Source: an uncultured Clostridia bacterium (lineage in GTDB: Bacteria; Bacillota_A; Clostridia; TANB77; CAG-508). Taken from it: DNA of 10,901 bases. The position numbers were made by a program, and so were the translations under genes. Numbering within the stretch: the first letter of the stretch is position 1; each line of letters opens with the position of its first letter. Location: positions 1-10,901 of the forward strand of contig CANPZA010000042.1 of assembly GCA_947588915.1 (NCBI GenBank). The letters are read 5' to 3'. Under the pieces are notes generated by a model. That model saw only the letters and a list, made by a program, of their open reading frames with translations, made no database searches and had not been told where the DNA came from. Shown here one piece after another: positions 952-10,901 of this stretch.

Positions 952-1816
952 TTATTTCTCCCATCTTCCATAAATACCACATGGTAATATTAATTTTGAA
1001 TTTTCCATTGGAAGTCCTATTTCTCCACATTCTAATTTTCCTTTATATTTTTTGTCTATCATTAAGCTTAATATATTTTGTAAAACTGTACTAGATATGC
1101 CAGTTGTATATGAGTTAATTAAGAAAAATAATGGATTATCAGATAATACTTTTGAACACAATTCTACCAAATCATAAATATTTTCTTCAAATTGCCATAC
1201 TTCTCCTCTTGCCCCTCTTCCATAAGATGGTGGATCCATTATTATCGCATCATATTTATTTCCCCTTCTTATTTCTCTATTTACAAATTTTATTACATCA
1301 TCAACTATAAACCTAACTGTTTTGTCTTGTAATCCTGAAGATATAACATTTTCTTTTGCCCATGTAGTCATACCTTTTGAACTATCAACATGACATACTG
1401 ATGCTCCTGCAGATAAACAAGCTACAGTTGCTCCGACCAGTATATGCAAATAAATTTAATACTTTCACTTCTTTTTTTGCTGTTTTTATTTTATTTATCA
1501 TCCAATCCCAATTAACTGCTTGTTCTGGAAATAGTCCTGTATGTTTAAATCCCATTGGTTTTATATTAAAGGTTAAATTTTTATAGTGCACTTGCCATGT
1601 TTTTGGCATTTTGCCTTTAAATTCCCATGAACCTCCACCTGTTTTACTTCTATGATATTTTGCATTTACTTTATTCCATTTTTCTGGGAAGCTTTTATCT
1701 TTCCATATTATTTGTGGGTCTGGTCTTGCTAAAACAACATCTCCCCATTTTTCTAATTTTTCTCCATTTGCCATATCTAATATCTTATATTGTTTCCATT
1801 CATTTGCTAATTTCAT
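952..1816 (-). pseudogene. Class I SAM-dependent RNA methyltransferase-like gene, frameshifted
   Basis: The two halves of one protein lie in different frames. The N-terminal part (from M at 1816) runs through LNLFAYTG, the glycine-rich SAM-binding strand. The C-terminal part resumes at GATVACLSAGASVCHVD and contains the MDPPSYGRG motif typical of RlmI-like methyltransferases. Removing one base at 1434-1436 (GGTCGGA to GGNGGA) restores FAYTGGATVAC and a product of about 287 residues, the expected length. The extra base is not in a homopolymer. The gene is therefore either a recent pseudogene, a programmed frameshift (no slippery site seen) or an assembly error. An in-frame ATG at 1837 has no ribosome binding site. 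The ATG at 1816 has AAAGGA 12 bases upstream, so I prefer it, weakly. The pseudouridine synthase gene follows without a gap. Confidence 0.85.
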
Positions 1817-1820
1817 AAAA

Positions 1821-1849
1821 AATACTATTCCTTTCATTAGAATAGTATT
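1821..1849. promoter_or_regulatory. Dyad (possible operator) over the predicted start of transcription
   Basis: There is a perfect 10-bp inverted repeat, AATACTATTC (1821-1830) and GAATAGTATT (1840-1849), with 9 bases between the arms. It abuts the -10 box at 1850-1855 and spans the predicted transcription start near 1843 and the ribosome binding site (TCCTTT on +, 1829-1834). Because only part of the distal arm would be transcribed from that start, a DNA operator for a dimeric repressor fits better than an RNA hairpin. If transcription starts further upstream, it would instead form a hairpin followed by six T just before the ATG. Confidence 0.55.
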
Positions 1850-6876: not shown

Positions 6877-7488
6877 TTATTCCTCTTTTCTATTTGTTTC
6901 TACAATTTCAGTTTGTTCTATATTTTCTTCTTGTTCTATTAATTCATCAATAACTATTTGCTTATTTTCATCCATTTTATATCGCGGTAATTCTGGGAGT
7001 TCTTCTAAAGATGAATACCCAAATTTTTTTAAGAACTCATCTGTTGTTTTATATGACATCGGTTTTCCTGGTAAATCAATTTTCCCTGCTTCTTCGATTA
7101 AACCATATTCTAATAATTTATACACACATGCATCTGCAGAAACTCCACGTATTGATTCTATTTCTGCTCTTGTAATTTTAGGATTGTATGCAATTATTGA
7201 TAATGTTTCTAATGCTGCATTTGATAAATTAGGTGCATTTCTTTTATCTATTATTGGGTAAACAAAATTATATAATTCTTTTTTTGTGCATAATTGATAA
7301 TTATCATTTACTTTTATAAGTTCTATTCCTCTTTCTTCTTTTTTATACTCTTCTTGCATATTTGAAATTATATTATCAATTTCATCTTCTGAAATTTCTA
7401 ATGCTAAAACAATTTCTTTTTTACTTACTTGTCTTCCTGCTGAAAAAAGAATTGCCTCTATTATTGATTTTAATTTATTAATCTCCAT
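6877..7488 (-). CDS. scpB: Segregation and condensation protein B
   Basis: A winged-helix subunit of the SMC-ScpA-ScpB complex that organises and segregates chromosomes. From the ATG at 7488 the product has 203 residues, a normal length. The first winged-helix domain covers about residues 1-80. The second begins near ALETLSIIAYNPKITRAEIE and carries the family signature IRGVSADACVYKLLEYGLI. After GKPMSYKTTDEFLKKFG and LEELPEL there is an acidic tail rich in Glu. A longer frame opens at 7524, but that ATG lies within the -10 box of a near-consensus promoter. The ATG at 7488 has AGGAAGG six bases upstream, which settles the start. scpA is not next to it: the gene is the first of its operon, with proS second. 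Confidence 0.95.
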   Translation of the reverse strand: MEINKLKSIIEAILFSAGRQVSKKEIVLALEISEDEIDNIISNMQEEYKKEERGIELIKVNDNYQLCTKKELYNFVYPIIDKRNAPNLSNAALETLSIIAYNPKITRAEIESIRGVSADACVYKLLEYGLIEEAGKIDLPGKPMSYKTTDEFLKKFGYSSLEELPELPRYKMDENKQIVIDELIEQEENIEQTEIVETNRKEE

Positions 7489-7494
7489 TTTATT

Positions 7495-7501
7495 CCTTCC
7501 T
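7495..7501 (-). promoter_or_regulatory. Ribosome binding site fixing the scpB start
   Basis: AGGAAGG on the minus strand lies 6 bases before the ATG at 7488. No comparable site precedes the earlier in-frame ATG at 7524. Confidence 0.8.
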
Positions 7502-7522
7502 AAATAATTTTTTAATATGTAC

Positions 7523-7551
7523 ATTATCCCATGTAATACTTAATTTGTCAA
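7523..7551 (-). promoter_or_regulatory. Near-perfect sigma-A promoter of scpB-proS
   Basis: On the minus strand, TTGACA (7551-7546, full consensus) and GATAAT (7528-7523, one mismatch) are 17 bases apart. The predicted start near 7516 leaves a leader of about 28 bases before the scpB ATG. Confidence 0.85.
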
Positions 7552-7657
7552 TATTTTTTCAATTTTTCTTGCGCTTTTTAGCTTATTGTGATAATATTAT
7601 TTTAATAATAATTTTAAGATAAATTTTTATATTTTGTATTTATTATTAATTTTTTTT

Positions 7658-7662
7658 GGAGG
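7658..7662 (+). promoter_or_regulatory. Ribosome binding site fixing the start of the small charged protein
   Basis: GGAGG lies 7 bases before the ATG at 7670. An earlier in-frame ATG at 7634 has no such site and would place the GGAGG inside the coding region. Confidence 0.75.
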
Positions 7663-7669
7663 TTTGTTT

Positions 7670-7852
7670 ATGGATGAGAAAAAAAATTTAGAAGTCGTTT
7701 CAGATGATGGCACTAGTTTAAATATTTCTCCTGTATATGACCATTTAAATATTGGCAAGCCAAAATCTGCTACTGAAAAACCTAAAAATATTGTAATACC
7801 TAAAGAAAAAGATAAAAAAAACAATGAAGAAAAGAAAGATGAAGAAAATTAA
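7670..7852 (+). CDS. Small, highly charged protein of unknown function
   Basis: The 60-residue product is soluble and probably largely disordered. It has an acidic start (MDEKKN), a middle part with SLNISPVYDHLNIGKPKSA, and a tail from about residue 37 made mostly of Lys, Glu, Asp and Asn. It has no signal peptide, membrane helix or cysteine. The GGAGG site and an immediately following strong terminator indicate a real single-gene unit. It is transcribed divergently from scpB. A promoter is not clear: TAATAT at 7592-7597 has only a weak TTGCGC 17 bases upstream. The IVIP and PVYDHLNIGKPKS segments look more constrained than the tail and would be the parts to compare across genomes. I do not recognise a function. 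Confidence 0.72.
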   Translation: MDEKKNLEVVSDDGTSLNISPVYDHLNIGKPKSATEKPKNIVIPKEKDKKNNEEKKDEEN

Positions 7853-7867
7853 TCTTCATCTTTTTTT
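7835..7867. terminator. Bidirectional terminator between the small charged gene and the cohesin gene
   Basis: An 8-bp core stem (GATGAAGA 7838-7845 with TCTTCATC 7853-7860) extends to 11 bp with AAA/TTT. On the plus strand it is followed by T7 (7861-7867). On the minus strand it follows directly after the cohesin-gene stop and leads into TTTCTTTTC. The loop carries the TAA of the plus-strand gene. Confidence 0.85.
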
Positions 7868-8624
7868 AAATATCCATATATTTATTTCTTTTATAAAGTA
7901 TTACTGCTACTATTAATGATACTATTATTGCAGTTGTTATTAATACACTTTTTATACCAGTTTGTGGTATTGTTTTATTAGATGTTGTTCCATCTTTTGG
8001 TGTTAAATTTCCACTTTGTTGGAAATTTGTTGTGCTTCCTCCATTACCACTTCCTGTATTTCCTCCCTGTGCAGTATTTCCACCTTGTGCTGTATTTCCT
8101 CCTTGTGCAGTGTTTCCACCTTGCACTGTATTTCCTCCACTAGCATTTTCTACTATTGCTATTGTTCCTGTAGCATCTGCTACTTCAAAAGTTTCATCAC
8201 CTGTTGAAAATTCTGCTTTGGTTAATGAAATGTTTTTATTTCCTATTGTTGCATTTTGTTTTGCTGTCAATGTTATTTTACCTATGGTTTGATTTGCTTT
8301 ATTAGCTGTATAATCTCCTCTTGCAATACTTACATTGTTTCCTATATACCCTTGTAATATCCAATTTCCTTGTTCATTTCCAGTTACTGTACAATCAAAT
8401 GCTTGCTCATCATAATTTACATTTGCATTAAATATTGCTATTCCATCTCCTTGAATATCGCTTGCTTTTATTAAGACTGTTACTGTTTCTCCTCTTTTCA
8501 CTTGTTTTTTGTCCATTTCTAATGTTAAATTACAAGTATTTTCTGCTGCAATACTATTTATACTAATACCTAAAACTAACATTATAAATGTTACTAATAT
8601 TAACATACTTTTATGTTTTAACAT
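7866..8624 (-). CDS. Cell-surface single-cohesin protein with IPQTG sortase-type anchor
   Basis: The product has 252 residues. Residues 1-27 form a signal peptide with likely cleavage after SIAA. Residues 30-149 resemble a cohesin domain: LTLEMDKKQVKRGETVTVLI, then GIAIFNANVNYDEQAFDC, a GNNVSIARGDYT loop, IGKITLTAK and a final TGTIAIV strand. C31 and C78 could form a disulfide. A Gly/Asn/Thr/Gln linker (about 150-218) contains GGNTAQ repeats. IPQTG (219-223) is followed by a 20-residue hydrophobic helix and the tail KRNKYMDI, the layout of a sortase substrate. The first ATG of the frame (8669) lacks a ribosome binding site. The ATG at 8624 has GAGGAGG 6 bases upstream and gives a clean signal peptide. 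The gene has its own promoter and follows an LRR-dockerin gene, so it is probably the wall-bound receptor for dockerin proteins (inference). Cohesin is assigned from the fold pattern. A related Ig-like surface domain is the alternative. Confidence 0.82.
   Translation of the reverse strand: MLKHKSMLILVTFIMLVLGISINSIAAENTCNLTLEMDKKQVKRGETVTVLIKASDIQGDGIAIFNANVNYDEQAFDCTVTGNEQGNWILQGYIGNNVSIARGDYTANKANQTIGKITLTAKQNATIGNKNISLTKAEFSTGDETFEVADATGTIAIVENASGGNTVQGGNTAQGGNTAQGGNTAQGGNTGSGNGGSTTNFQQSGNLTPKDGTTSNKTIPQTGIKSVLITTAIIVSLIVAVILYKRNKYMDI
8068..8139 (-). repeat. Four tandem 18-base repeats encoding the GGNTAQ linker
   Basis: The units are 8068-8085, 8086-8103, 8104-8121 and 8122-8139. They differ by a few bases and each encodes GGNT plus two residues (AQ or VQ). 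Tandem units of this kind can expand or contract by slippage, changing how far the cohesin stands off the wall. Confidence 0.85.
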
Positions 8625-8630
8625 TTGTAT

Positions 8631-8637
8631 CCTCCTC
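8631..8637 (-). promoter_or_regulatory. Ribosome binding site fixing the cohesin-protein start
   Basis: GAGGAGG on the minus strand lies 6 bases before the ATG at 8624. It sits inside the longer open frame, showing that the upstream ATG at 8669 is not the start. Confidence 0.85.
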
Positions 8638-8657
8638 ATATATATTTTCCTTCTTTT

Positions 8658-8686
8658 ATTATTCCACATTTATTAAAAAATTTCAA
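8658..8686 (-). promoter_or_regulatory. Sigma-A-type promoter of the cohesin gene
   Basis: On the minus strand, TTGAAA (8686-8681) and AATAAT (8663-8658) are 17 bases apart. The predicted start near 8651 lies downstream of the LRR gene, so the cohesin gene can be expressed on its own. No terminator hairpin separates it from the LRR gene, so read-through is also possible. Confidence 0.65.
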
Positions 8687-8689
8687 CAT

Positions 8690-8722
8690 TTTTTTATATT
8701 TTTTTATAATTTTTTATAATTT
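8690..8722. repeat. Low-complexity T/AT repeat between the LRR and cohesin genes
   Basis: Imperfect tandem copies of TTTTTATAAT or TTTTTATATT fill most of the 101-base gap. No hairpin is visible. On the minus strand it is an A-rich tract just upstream of the cohesin promoter and could act as an UP-like element (inference). Confidence 0.4.
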
Positions 8723-8725
8723 TAT

Positions 8726-10901
8726 CTATTCTATTATCCAATCTGGATTTTCTCTTTTTGTTTCTTCATCTTTACTTGCTGCTATATGTCTTAATAATTT
8801 TAATACATCTGTTGTGTTTATTTGATTATTATAATCAATATCTGCTATTTTATACTCTTTTTCTGTTAATATCCATGTTGGATTTTTACTTGCTATTTCC
8901 TCATCTTTATTTGCTGCTATATGTCTCAACATTTTTAATAAATCTGTTGAGTCTATTTTTCCATCTTCATCTATGTCTCCTTTTTTTATAATTATATATC
9001 CTTGTTTTCCTTCTTCTGCATATCTATGCCCTTCACTATTTGCTTTTACATAAATGATTGTTGTTTCATCTATTGTGGAACCTTCTATACTTGTTACATT
9101 ACCTGGTATATTTATTTCTCTTAAACTACTACAATTTTCAAATGCTCTCATTCCTATGTTTGTTACACTATTTGGGATTCCTATATTTACTAAACTACTA
9201 CATCCAGAAAATGCATACCTTCCTATGCTTGTTACACTACTTGCAATTGCTATTGTTTGTAAACTACTGCATCTTTCAAATGCCGTATGTACTATACTTG
9301 TTACTCCTTGTGGGATTGAATAACTGCTTCCTTCTTTTTTTTCTGGATATTTTATTATTTCTGTCTTATTTTTAGTAAATAATATTCCATTATCGCTCTC
9401 ATATTTTGTATTATTTCCATCTACATTTATTTCTTTTAAACTACTACAATTCCTAAATTCATTACCATTATTATTTCCTATATTTGTTACACTACTTGGA
9501 ATATTTATCTCTTTCAAACTACTACATTCATAAAATGCAAAATTATCTATTCTTATTACTCCTTTTGGGATTGAATAATTAGTTTCTTCTTTTCCTCCTG
9601 GATATTTCTTGATTGCTATTTTATTCTTAGTAAATAATACTCCTTCATCACTTTCATATTCTGTATTATTTCCATCTACATTTATTTCTTTTAAACTACT
9701 ACATCCATAAAATTCACTATCTATTATAATTGTTACACTGCTTGGAATTCCTATTGTTTCTAAACTACTACAATAACTAAATGCAGAATCTCCTATGCTT
9801 GTTACTCCTTCTGGGATATTTATTTCTTTTAAACTCTTACAATTCCAAAATGCATCCTCTCCTATGCTTGTTACACTACTTGGTATTTCTATTGTTTCTA
9901 AACTACTACATCTATCAAATGCACTCGATCCTATGTTTGTTATTTTGTCTTTTATAACTACTTTCTTTATAGCATAAGCATATTTAGTACCGTGCCAGTC
10001 CGTATTATCATTAAATTCCCAGTCCCTCATTTCTCCATCGCCTGAGATTGTAAGAGTTCTATCTTTTGATGTCCATTTTGCTTTAACACTTCCATTTTGC
10101 GCTTTTGATATATCCCATTCTTTTTCTTCTTTTATTTCATAATTTGTAGATATATTATTAGCATCTCCTTCTAATATATATCCTTGCTTATTTTCTTCTG
10201 CATATCTATGCCCTTCACTATCTGCTTTTACACACATAATTGCTGTATAATATATTGCAGAACTTCCTATTCTTGTAACTCCTTCTGGGATAGTTATTTC
10301 TTTTAAACTACTACATAAATAAAATGCACCATCTCCTATTCTTGTTACTTCCTCTGGAATTGAATAACTGGCTTCTTCTTTTCCTTCCGGATATTTTATT
10401 ATTTCTGTCTTATTTTTAGTAAATAATACTCCTTCATCACTTTCATATTTTGTATTATTAATATCTACATTTATTTCTTTTAAACTACTACATTTCCAAA
10501 ATGCTTCACTTCCTATGCTTGTTACATTACTTGGAATTTCTATTGTTTCTAAACTACTACAATTATTGAATGCATCATAATGTATATGTGCCATACTACT
10601 TGGTATTTCGATTCTTTCTAAACTACTACATCCAGAAAATGCATATTCTCCTATACTTGTTACTTCTTGTGGTATTGAATAACTGGTTTCTTTTTTTCCT
10701 TCTGGATATTTTTTGATTTCTGTCTTATCTTTACTAAATAATATCCCATCCTCACTTTTATACTTCATATTATTATTATCTACATTTATAGCTGTTAAAC
10801 TACTACAATCCTCAAATGCACGCTCTCCTATGCTTGTTACTCCTTCTGGAATATTTATTTCTTCTAGACTACTACATCCAGAAAATGCCCACTCTCCTAT
10901 G
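8726..10901 (-). CDS. BspA-type leucine-rich-repeat surface protein with C-terminal dockerin (5' end outside window)
   Basis: The frame stays open to the window edge. The ATG at 10768 is internal and continues a repeat, so about 724 C-terminal residues are visible. Numbered from that M, an LRR_5/BspA block of about 23-residue units (pattern IGxxAFxxCSSLxxIxIPxxVTS) runs to about 165 and ends in a VKADSEGHRYAEE cap. A spacer follows, then a WDISKAQNGSVKAKW to LTISGDGEMRDW domain (about 217-275) as often seen in clostridial LRR proteins. A second LRR block (276-565) ends in a near-identical cap, followed by a dockerin (597-680). Fifteen CSSL-type units are visible. The dockerin has two calcium-loop repeats (DIDEDGKIDSTD and DIDYNNQINTTD), each followed by a helix ending in LLRHIAA or MLRHIAA. 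There is no wall anchor at the C-terminus. The signal peptide would be outside the window. Likely role: a secreted adhesin or binding protein docked to a surface cohesin, such as the next gene's product (inference). Confidence 0.92.
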   Translation of the reverse strand, partial: IGEWAFSGCSSLEEINIPEGVTSIGERAFEDCSSLTAINVDNNNMKYKSEDGILFSKDKTEIKKYPEGKKETSYSIPQEVTSIGEYAFSGCSSLERIEIPSSMAHIHYDAFNNCSSLETIEIPSNVTSIGSEAFWKCSSLKEINVDINNTKYESDEGVLFTKNKTEIIKYPEGKEEASYSIPEEVTRIGDGAFYLCSSLKEITIPEGVTRIGSSAIYYTAIMCVKADSEGHRYAEENKQGYILEGDANNISTNYEIKEEKEWDISKAQNGSVKAKWTSKDRTLTISGDGEMRDWEFNDNTDWHGTKYAYAIKKVVIKDKITNIGSSAFDRCSSLETIEIPSSVTSIGEDAFWNCKSLKEINIPEGVTSIGDSAFSYCSSLETIGIPSSVTIIIDSEFYGCSSLKEINVDGNNTEYESDEGVLFTKNKIAIKKYPGGKEETNYSIPKGVIRIDNFAFYECSSLKEINIPSSVTNIGNNNGNEFRNCSSLKEINVDGNNTKYESDNGILFTKNKTEIIKYPEKKEGSSYSIPQGVTSIVHTAFERCSSLQTIAIASSVTSIGRYAFSGCSSLVNIGIPNSVTNIGMRAFENCSSLREINIPGNVTSIEGSTIDETTIIYVKANSEGHRYAEEGKQGYIIIKKGDIDEDGKIDSTDLLKMLRHIAANKDEEIASKNPTWILTEKEYKIADIDYNNQINTTDVLKLLRHIAASKDEETKRENPDWIIE
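8729..8980 (-). other. Dockerin domain coding segment
   Basis: The 84 C-terminal residues hold two repeats of about 40. Calcium ligands fit positions 1, 3, 5, 9 and 12 of both loops (D,D,D,D,D and D,D,N,N,D). Recognition positions 10-11 are ST and TT, and position 18 is Arg in both. Each helix is followed by a shared KDEE and NPxW extension. Confidence 0.9.
9311..9430 (-). repeat. 120-base in-frame module, copy 4
   Basis: This encodes 40 residues from INVDGNNTKYESDNG to SYSIP. Four copies of identical length occur in the LRR gene; the others are at 9566-9685, 10355-10474 and 10670-10789. Each splits the regular LRR units with a hairpin-like insertion of the type seen in BspA proteins (xGVLFTKNKTEIIKYP). 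Confidence 0.85.
9566..9685 (-). repeat. 120-base in-frame module, copy 3
   Basis: This encodes INVDGNNTEYESDEG to NYSIP. It shares long near-identical DNA stretches with copy 2, for example the segment encoding YESDEGVLFTKNK. Confidence 0.85.
9944..10123 (-). other. Inter-block domain within the LRR protein
   Basis: About 60 residues starting at EWDISKAQNGSVKAKW and containing LTISGDGEMRDW separate the two LRR blocks. This segment commonly starts LRR blocks in clostridial surface proteins. Its internal position suggests the protein arose by joining two LRR units. Confidence 0.6.
10355..10474 (-). repeat. 120-base in-frame module, copy 2
   Basis: This encodes INVDINNTKYESDEG to SYSIP, the second of four equal-length copies counted from the upstream side. 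Confidence 0.85.
10670..10789 (-). repeat. 120-base in-frame module, copy 1
   Basis: This encodes INVDNNNMKYKSEDG to SYSIP. It contains the internal ATG at 10768, which is a repeat residue (the copies have Thr there) and not a translation start. Confidence 0.85.

Follow-up and report, generated by a model that had tools for sequence, protein, structure and literature searches.

A putatively wall-anchored single cohesin and its leucine-rich repeat neighbour as a candidate plug-and-socket pair in an uncultured Clostridia bacterium

The 10,901-nucleotide (nt) stretch of contig CANPZA010000042.1 analysed here, referred to as the window, comes from an uncultured Clostridia bacterium and carries two adjacent genes on its minus strand: one for a BspA-type leucine-rich repeat (LRR) protein that ends in a dockerin and, 101 nt downstream, one for a surface protein with a single cohesin. 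We know of no settled role for cohesins and dockerins outside cellulosomes, and the locus raises the question of whether the two neighbours serve each other. Very probably they do, as a matched plug and socket in which the cohesin on the wall would dock the LRR protein via its dockerin. The domains and tails of the two proteins, the conserved order of their genes and the matched evolution of their sequences are directly observed; from these we infer binding and attachment to the wall.

The window proteins were taken from the open reading frame (ORF) list and scanned with Pfam and NCBIfam models, each match being judged against the curated cut-offs. A preliminary description of this DNA had placed a sortase-type single-cohesin protein directly downstream of an LRR-dockerin protein, and both genes lie there, with Pfam matches above the cut-offs. 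The cohesin protein of 252 amino acids (aa) consists of a signal peptide, a single cohesin and a sortase-type tail, and holds no dockerin. Its PF00963 match (30.5 bits, E 4.7e-7) exceeds the 24.1-bit cut-off; the domain is the one described earlier, but it lies at residues 49-168 in the numbering of the 267-aa ORF and not at 28-150. The type of sorting motif recurs in the cohesin proteins of relatives.

AlphaFold2 models of the cohesin and LRR-dockerin proteins were built from alignments of three sequences each. The cohesin model is of modest confidence, with a mean predicted local distance difference test (pLDDT) value of 61.6. In a Foldseek search of this model against the PDB, the top matches are the non-cellulosomal cohesins of Clostridium perfringens, 2vo8 (E 1.2e-7, template modelling (TM) score by target 0.76) and 2jh2 (E 1.1e-6, TM score by target 0.79-0.81), followed by many cellulosomal cohesins; integrin beta-sandwiches enter the ranking only from rank 20. 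The window domain is predicted to adopt a jelly-roll fold like that of solved cohesins, which bears out the fold check proposed in the preliminary description. Searched as a single sequence, the cohesin protein has a weak best PDB match, a C. perfringens cohesin (E 0.0037), and a profile built from 44 relatives retrieves cohesins of scaffoldins there by sequence (best 1g1k, E 1.3e-7).

In the LRR protein, the repeat part is modelled mostly with high confidence, and the C-terminal dockerin matches PF00404 (27.6 bits, E 3.3e-6, cut-off 22.9 bits) with two calcium-loop-helix repeats. Searching with a profile built from 37 dockerins retrieves dockerins of solved structure, the best being 8x39, a serine protease dockerin (E 2.5e-20), with 1ohz at E 2.6e-15. 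The earlier statement that this protein has no wall anchor of its own holds for the C-terminus; the gene is cut at the window end, so that the N-terminus and any N-terminal anchor are out of view. No dockerin-bearing enzyme, carbohydrate-binding module or multi-cohesin protein occurs among the window proteins scanned, as had been described. The most likely start of the cohesin gene is the ATG at 8624, which gives 252 rather than 267 aa and the intergenic spacing of 101 nt, because a GAGGAGG ribosome site (8631-8637) precedes this ATG and the two closest homologues, P0001 and P0002, share the same start.

Table 1 Features of the cohesin and dockerin genes in the window.
Feature	Position	Strand	Remarks
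Single-cohesin surface protein	7866..8624	-	likely start at 8624; ORF open to 8669
Cohesin domain	8166..8525	-	PF00963; fold match to solved cohesins
Linker	7971..8165	-	GGNTAQ-type repeats between cohesin and sorting motif; from the sequence itself
IPQTG sorting-type motif	7956..7970	-	followed by hydrophobic segment and KRNK tail to 7869
LRR-dockerin protein	8726..10900	-	724 aa seen; 5' end cut by window edge
BspA-type leucine-rich repeats	8984..10900	-	LRR_5; non-repeat stretch in the middle; Pfam E 3.6e-113
Type I dockerin	8783..8983	-	PF00404; residues 640-706 of 724; continues to protein end at 8729
Calcium loop 1 of dockerin	8942..8977	-	DIDEDGKIDSTD; from sequence and alignment
Calcium loop 2 of dockerin	8807..8842	-	DIDYNNQINTTD; from sequence and alignment
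Terminator-like hairpin	7835..7863	-	directly after the cohesin gene; none in the scan between both genes

Relatives were reached through the neighbouring proS (prolyl-tRNA synthetase) gene, and whole genomes were then searched. The first set of loci comprises the 20 best of the family, one per genome (a second G342 locus, passed over at this step, was added later), and 40 more taken at about every third rank further down. Of the 59 loci with a gene at the position directly upstream, 44 carry a same-strand dockerin gene there. Other offsets hold a dockerin gene in 5/59 (directly downstream), 3/50 (+2), 2/49 (+3) and 3/55 (-2) loci, and each of the remaining seven offsets in 0 of 30-47. The second set consists of the next 60 rows in rank order, chosen irrespective of neighbours, with two loci without a called cohesin frame excluded; here the dockerin gene is directly upstream in 45 of 58 (one of the 58 lies at a contig edge), at a median gap of 43 nt. 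Side-by-side conservation, which the preliminary description had proposed to look for in relatives, is found in both sets. The loci left out are 19 lower rows of the family listing and the matches beyond it. A further set of 20 regions (14 adjacent), 9 of which were picked because adjacency had been seen, stands outside the adjacency counts, and its pairs are kept in the identity matrices (n = 62) and the covariation set (n = 130). Across the whole of the 20 genomes that hold the best loci, 35 of the 67 cohesin matches have a dockerin within 1 kb upstream, 5 have one within 1 kb downstream and 5 have one in the same frame.

The two sequences also diverge together. Across 62 adjacent pairs, the identity matrices of cohesin and dockerin correlate at r = 0.85, a value reached by none of 2000 shuffles (largest 0.18). 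Relatedness and linkage feed into this coefficient, and the test was therefore restricted to seven genomes with two pairs. Each dockerin was set against the second dockerin of its own genome and against a dockerin of another genome, chosen because its cohesin neighbour is the one most like that of the pair tested. In 12 of 14 comparisons the dockerin of the other genome is the closer, so that dockerins go with their cohesins more than with their genomes; both exceptions come from G160, where the two pairs are alike (47% for the cohesins, 65% for the dockerins).

Covariation was computed as average-product-corrected mutual information over 130 unique pairs, with p-values that treat columns as independent. 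On the dockerin side it peaks at loop positions 14 and 18 in both repeats and is also high at 10, 15 and 19, at positions 23 and 9 of repeat 1 and at position 1 of repeat 2. In the cohesin, the highest values fall on strand 6, on residue 78 immediately preceding strand 3, and on residues 90 and 119, which lie in loops. One contact set (A) was drawn up once the top pairs were known and is taken as no evidence; likewise, the p = 0.001 for strands 5 and 6 alone is after the fact. Contact set B, drawn from the literature, gives p = 0.010. Contact set C maps the crystal-structure contacts of dockerin helix 1, printed for Ruminococcus flavefaciens Doc1a in PMC5429695, onto both repeats, the use of both repeats and the placing of Doc1a residue 39 at loop position 10 being our assignments. 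Its columns exceed the others after correction for entropy and gaps, with p = 0.0001 (repeat 1, 0.0038; repeat 2, 0.0008). The 8-3-6-5 face of the cohesin, a sheet named as the cohesin interface in PMC5429695, is enriched in covariation with p = 0.019. The scores of the two dockerin repeats are similar (r = 0.62 over 23 positions), a likeness that hints at dual binding.

Anchor and cargo are divided between the two proteins. Membrane segments were assigned by simple hydropathy rather than by a trained predictor in 61 cohesin proteins, that of the window included, and 58 dockerin proteins. An N-terminal hydrophobic segment is present in 61/61 cohesin proteins, a C-terminal membrane segment in 58/61 and an xPxTG motif in 41/61. 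Neither a C-terminal membrane segment nor an xPxTG motif occurs in any of the 58 dockerin proteins from these loci, and an N-terminal hydrophobic segment is present in 47 of the 50 with a complete start. Sortases are present in all 20 related genomes.

The cargo itself varies. Among 46 partner proteins of adjacent pairs in 60 loci, Pfam finds Dockerin_1 in 42, together with F5/8 type C (16), NPCBM (12), papain-type peptidase (9), transglutaminase-like (7), Lectin_like (6) and LRR_8 (5) domains; Ig-like partner proteins also occur in relatives. Enzymes among the partners (papain, transglutaminase) go beyond what the preliminary description had noted. A word-based homologue search covering 5.8 billion proteins returned two homologues for the cohesin protein and, for the dockerin, three proteins that carry a similar one. 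One of the latter, P0123, shares 91% identity with the dockerin region (residues 625-724) over 87% of its length and has a different body, with Flg_new repeats and an SLH match just below cut-off; its own dockerin scores 22.4 bits against the cut-off of 22.9. A similar plug is thus used on other cargo, and the 13 dockerin matches of one type in genome G358, described below, point the same way.

In the proposed mechanism, a sortase would attach the exported cohesin protein to the cell wall at its IPQTG tail, leaving a single cohesin held out by the linker. The LRR protein would be secreted with no anchor at its C-terminus and then caught by this cohesin through its C-terminal calcium-binding dockerin, and its LRR domain would thereby be displayed on the cell, where, judging by the family name, it may act as an adhesin or binding protein. 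Plug and socket are matched in sequence, and the sequences of other pairs in the same genome are mostly quite different. The cargo, which differs between genomes, could be exchanged by joining a similar dockerin to another protein. Capture of the LRR protein by a wall-bound cohesin, as put forward in the preliminary description, is supported by the fold and the conserved adjacency, the binding itself being predicted. A broader claim, which we favour only slightly, is that this Clostridia lineage uses several mutually private cohesin-dockerin pairs per genome, not scaffolds, each co-diversifying and sorting cargo to its own anchor. If true, cohesin and dockerin would provide a general, cellulosome-free means of surface display, an alternative to a sortase tail fused on each protein.

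Several points weigh against docking between matched neighbours. The NCBIfam LPXTG model TIGR01167 scores the IPQTG tail at 14.3 bits, just under the curated cut-off of 15.9, and 20 of the 61 cohesin proteins have no xPxTG. The dockerin of the window is modelled without confidence (pLDDT block means 30-49), with two long helices at the expected places. About a quarter of the loci of relatives have no adjacent upstream dockerin gene; among the 67 cohesin matches, 12 have a dockerin only at 1-5 kb and 10 have none on that strand of the contig, and dockerin matches outnumber cohesin matches in the 20 genomes by 97 to 67. Linked genes travel together, so part of the correlation between the identity matrices is co-inheritance, and in two of the 12 favourable within-genome comparisons the margin is small (0.32 or 0.33 vs 0.27). 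Cohesin residues outside strands are involved in 22 of the top 60 covarying pairs. Contact sets slid along the dockerin score lower, but a shift of +4 is nearly equal (0.0291 vs 0.0310), in keeping with helix periodicity, the shift being one helix turn. Other dockerin proteins are present in relatives (a genome search for dockerin-ended ones had been proposed earlier), and in G358 13 of the 15 dockerin matches are of one type, placed directly after the signal peptide; one dockerin type on many proteins resembles a hub rather than a pair. Finally, the genome-wide cohesin counts come from relatives and not from the organism of the window, which may encode elsewhere a cohesin that suits this dockerin better.

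The last point also favours a different view, in which the pair is one visible piece of a larger cellulosome-like multi-enzyme complex, with the gene for the multi-cohesin scaffoldin lying at another place in the genome. The single-cohesin, sortase-anchored ScaE has this role in R. flavefaciens as described in PMC2930009 and PMC5301203, and PMC12997984 describes a sortase-motif scaffoldin in Limousia. PF00963 overlooks some cohesins (at least one in G358, gene L278, found with our own profile, is absent from the PF00963 list), so frame counts may miss larger scaffoldins, and the partner protein at locus L214, outside the 46-protein set, has a GH42-like match of 23.2 bits against a cut-off of 21. 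These counts nevertheless make such a complex improbable: of the 66 cohesin-bearing frames in the 20 relatives, 65 hold one PF00963 match, one holds two and none holds more. No glycoside hydrolase appears in the 46 partners among the 25 families listed per half (of 40 and 30 matched), and the genomes measure 1.2-2.0 Mb, with 2-15 dockerin and 2 to 6 cohesin matches each. As far as the window and the relatives show, the system does not seem to be part of a cellulosome, the two-cohesin frames and the GH42-like partner being the exceptions.

It is just as improbable that the neighbours are tied by descent or regulation without mutual binding, with the cohesin binding another ligand or the dockerin another cohesin. 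The several cohesins per genome, often outnumbered by dockerins, would leave room for this, as would the ability of one cohesin to accept dockerins of several proteins, described for ScaE (PMC2930009, PMC5301203). Against it, partner sequences match within and between genomes, the match is concentrated on contact positions, and the gene order is kept although the type of cargo changes. Least probable is that the released dockerin protein docks on the cohesin of neighbouring cells and mediates cell-cell adhesion instead of self-display: BspA-type LRR proteins often bind other cells or host proteins and the dockerin protein has no visible C-terminal anchor, but papain, transglutaminase and NPCBM cargo seem, in our opinion, better suited to self-display, and the closeness of the adjacent genes at the median gap given above suggests joint expression, by which a cell could fill its own cohesin first.

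Compared with known systems, the pair is best read as a putative analogue of R. flavefaciens ScaE, free of a cellulosome and used as several docking pairs per genome. ScaE, with a single cohesin and a sortase tail of LPXTG type, is described as holding ScaB, CttA and a peptidase (PMC2930009, PMC5301203, PMC3573020), the papain-like client being that of PMC3573020. Group 4 dockerins, which mark the clients of ScaE, are reported on LRR proteins, peptidases and transglutaminases (PMC2930009, PMC5301203). By these last two accounts, the likeness lies in one cohesin, a sortase tail and the capture of secreted proteins with symmetric dockerins. The window protein has the ScaE-type layout (single cohesin, sortase tail, no dockerin), with a tail below the curated cut-off. 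ScaE also anchors the cellulosome and serves many clients according to the same two papers, whereas in the 20 relatives no frame holds more than two cohesins and each genome has several cohesin genes, many beside a dockerin gene. The best fold match of the model is moreover a C. perfringens cohesin, and ScaE (2zf9) ranks 48th.

The cohesins of C. perfringens GH84C/NagJ and GH33 are the best structural match (2vo8, 2jh2), and PMC12997984 describes for them a pairwise, non-scaffold use of cohesin and dockerin. Those cohesins are parts of glycoside hydrolases, whereas here no other domain is found beside the cohesin in a protein predicted to be wall-anchored. The Limousia mucinolysome, as presented in PMC12997984, shares with our case the origin from animal-gut bacteria, a sortase-motif cohesin protein and dockerin peptidases; it differs in having its own tandem-cohesin scaffoldins and dockerin-bearing mucin glycosidases. 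A 2024 survey (PMC11557425), described as covering cellulosome producers and leaving out metagenome genomes, names non-SLH-anchoring scaffoldins with cohesin and sorting signal as class 5 and single-cohesin proteins of unknown function as class 2. By domain content the window protein would belong to class 5, or to class 2 if IPQTG is not accepted as a sorting signal; compared with the proteins of that survey as described, it comes with no sign of a cellulosome and with a partner gene at hand. No earlier report of this arrangement was found in open-licence papers, the subscription literature being outside the search.

A lone cohesin with a conserved neighbour, a split between anchor and cargo, and a matched sequence code mean that two small proteins would suffice for a direct test of the role. 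The 130 unique pairs form a natural set of diverged cohesin-dockerin pairs that may prove useful for orthogonal binding; they also suggest that surface display in many bacteria of the lineage is shaped by pairs of this kind. The design is familiar from cellulose-digesting machines and occurs here apparently without them, as far as the relatives show.

The 80 proS loci belong to Clostridia, Clostridium, Clostridiaceae or Eubacteriales, nearly all metagenome-assembled or uncultured. Some isolates are from rabbit (Lapin) or chicken by isolate name, and the bacterium of the window is probably from an animal gut. The proS route was taken after an alignment of three cohesin sequences had found nothing in genome and viral contigs. 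A tblastn search (E <= 1e-3) with the window cohesin and dockerin gave no match near scpB-proS in the 80 loci, some of them short, so the pair seems not tied to that site. Many matches of one alignment (A1) were to the sorting tail only, and a stricter cut-off was then used. The profile of the cohesin protein has a match at E <= 1e-12 in 167 of the 390 genomes that make up the family of G006, with at most six candidates scored per genome. At E <= 1e-10, a broader profile matches 64 of 143 genomes of the order and 13 of 291 of the class (five of these 13 also belong to the order sample), a distribution that suggests an expansion of the system in this lineage.

Several variants of the arrangement occur among the relatives. 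In G342, the genome with the best cohesin match, genes for an LRR-dockerin and a papain-dockerin protein lie in a row upstream of one cohesin gene. A second recurrent cluster, seen in seven relatives (L282 (G342:C2), L354, L356, L359-L362), consists of a cohesin frame of about 350-400 aa and a sortase gene, with a dockerin frame of about 570-760 aa lying 3.4-3.8 kb from the cohesin; in three of them another cohesin gene follows. Dockerin and cohesin are joined in one chain in L211 (8224-12069, also with a transglutaminase-like domain), L212 (5946-9797), G207:C11, G251:C115, G280:C6, G268:C4 and G413:C33, where a chaining of cargo is possible. Very long frames (about 3,800-5,800 aa) with a single detected cohesin occur in G007:C25, G003:C22, G022:C8, G028:C11, G462:C33 and others.

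The tails of the cohesin proteins vary as well. Eleven of the 20 without xPxTG end in xPxAG (LPYAG, LPNAG, IPHAG), perhaps a variant sortase signal. The cohesin proteins L188 5747-6412, L199 9605-10243 and L201 723-1358 have no sortase tail; their N-terminus has a DRR-rich start followed by a membrane segment, which may be an alternative means of fixing the cohesin to the cell. In the common dockerin type of G358 (L267-L275, L277, L279, L280, L188), nine genes are cut by contig ends and some are perhaps copies; the cuts resemble the effect of a repeated gene family breaking the assembly. The four scanned proteins of this genome all have Big_2 domains, and one has a sub-threshold L,D-transpeptidase match.

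Around the two genes of the window, signals of transcription are weak. The terminator-like hairpin is the only one found at 7400-10901, against 0.6 expected by chance. A promoter-like site lies between the genes at 8686-8658, in a region where such sites are at chance level (25 found, 21.9 expected). Elsewhere in the window (952-1837, minus strand), a gene for an RlmI/RlmL-like RNA methyltransferase is broken into two frames that overlap (1385-1837 and 952-1449), and is thus frameshifted in the contig, by mutation or by assembly error.

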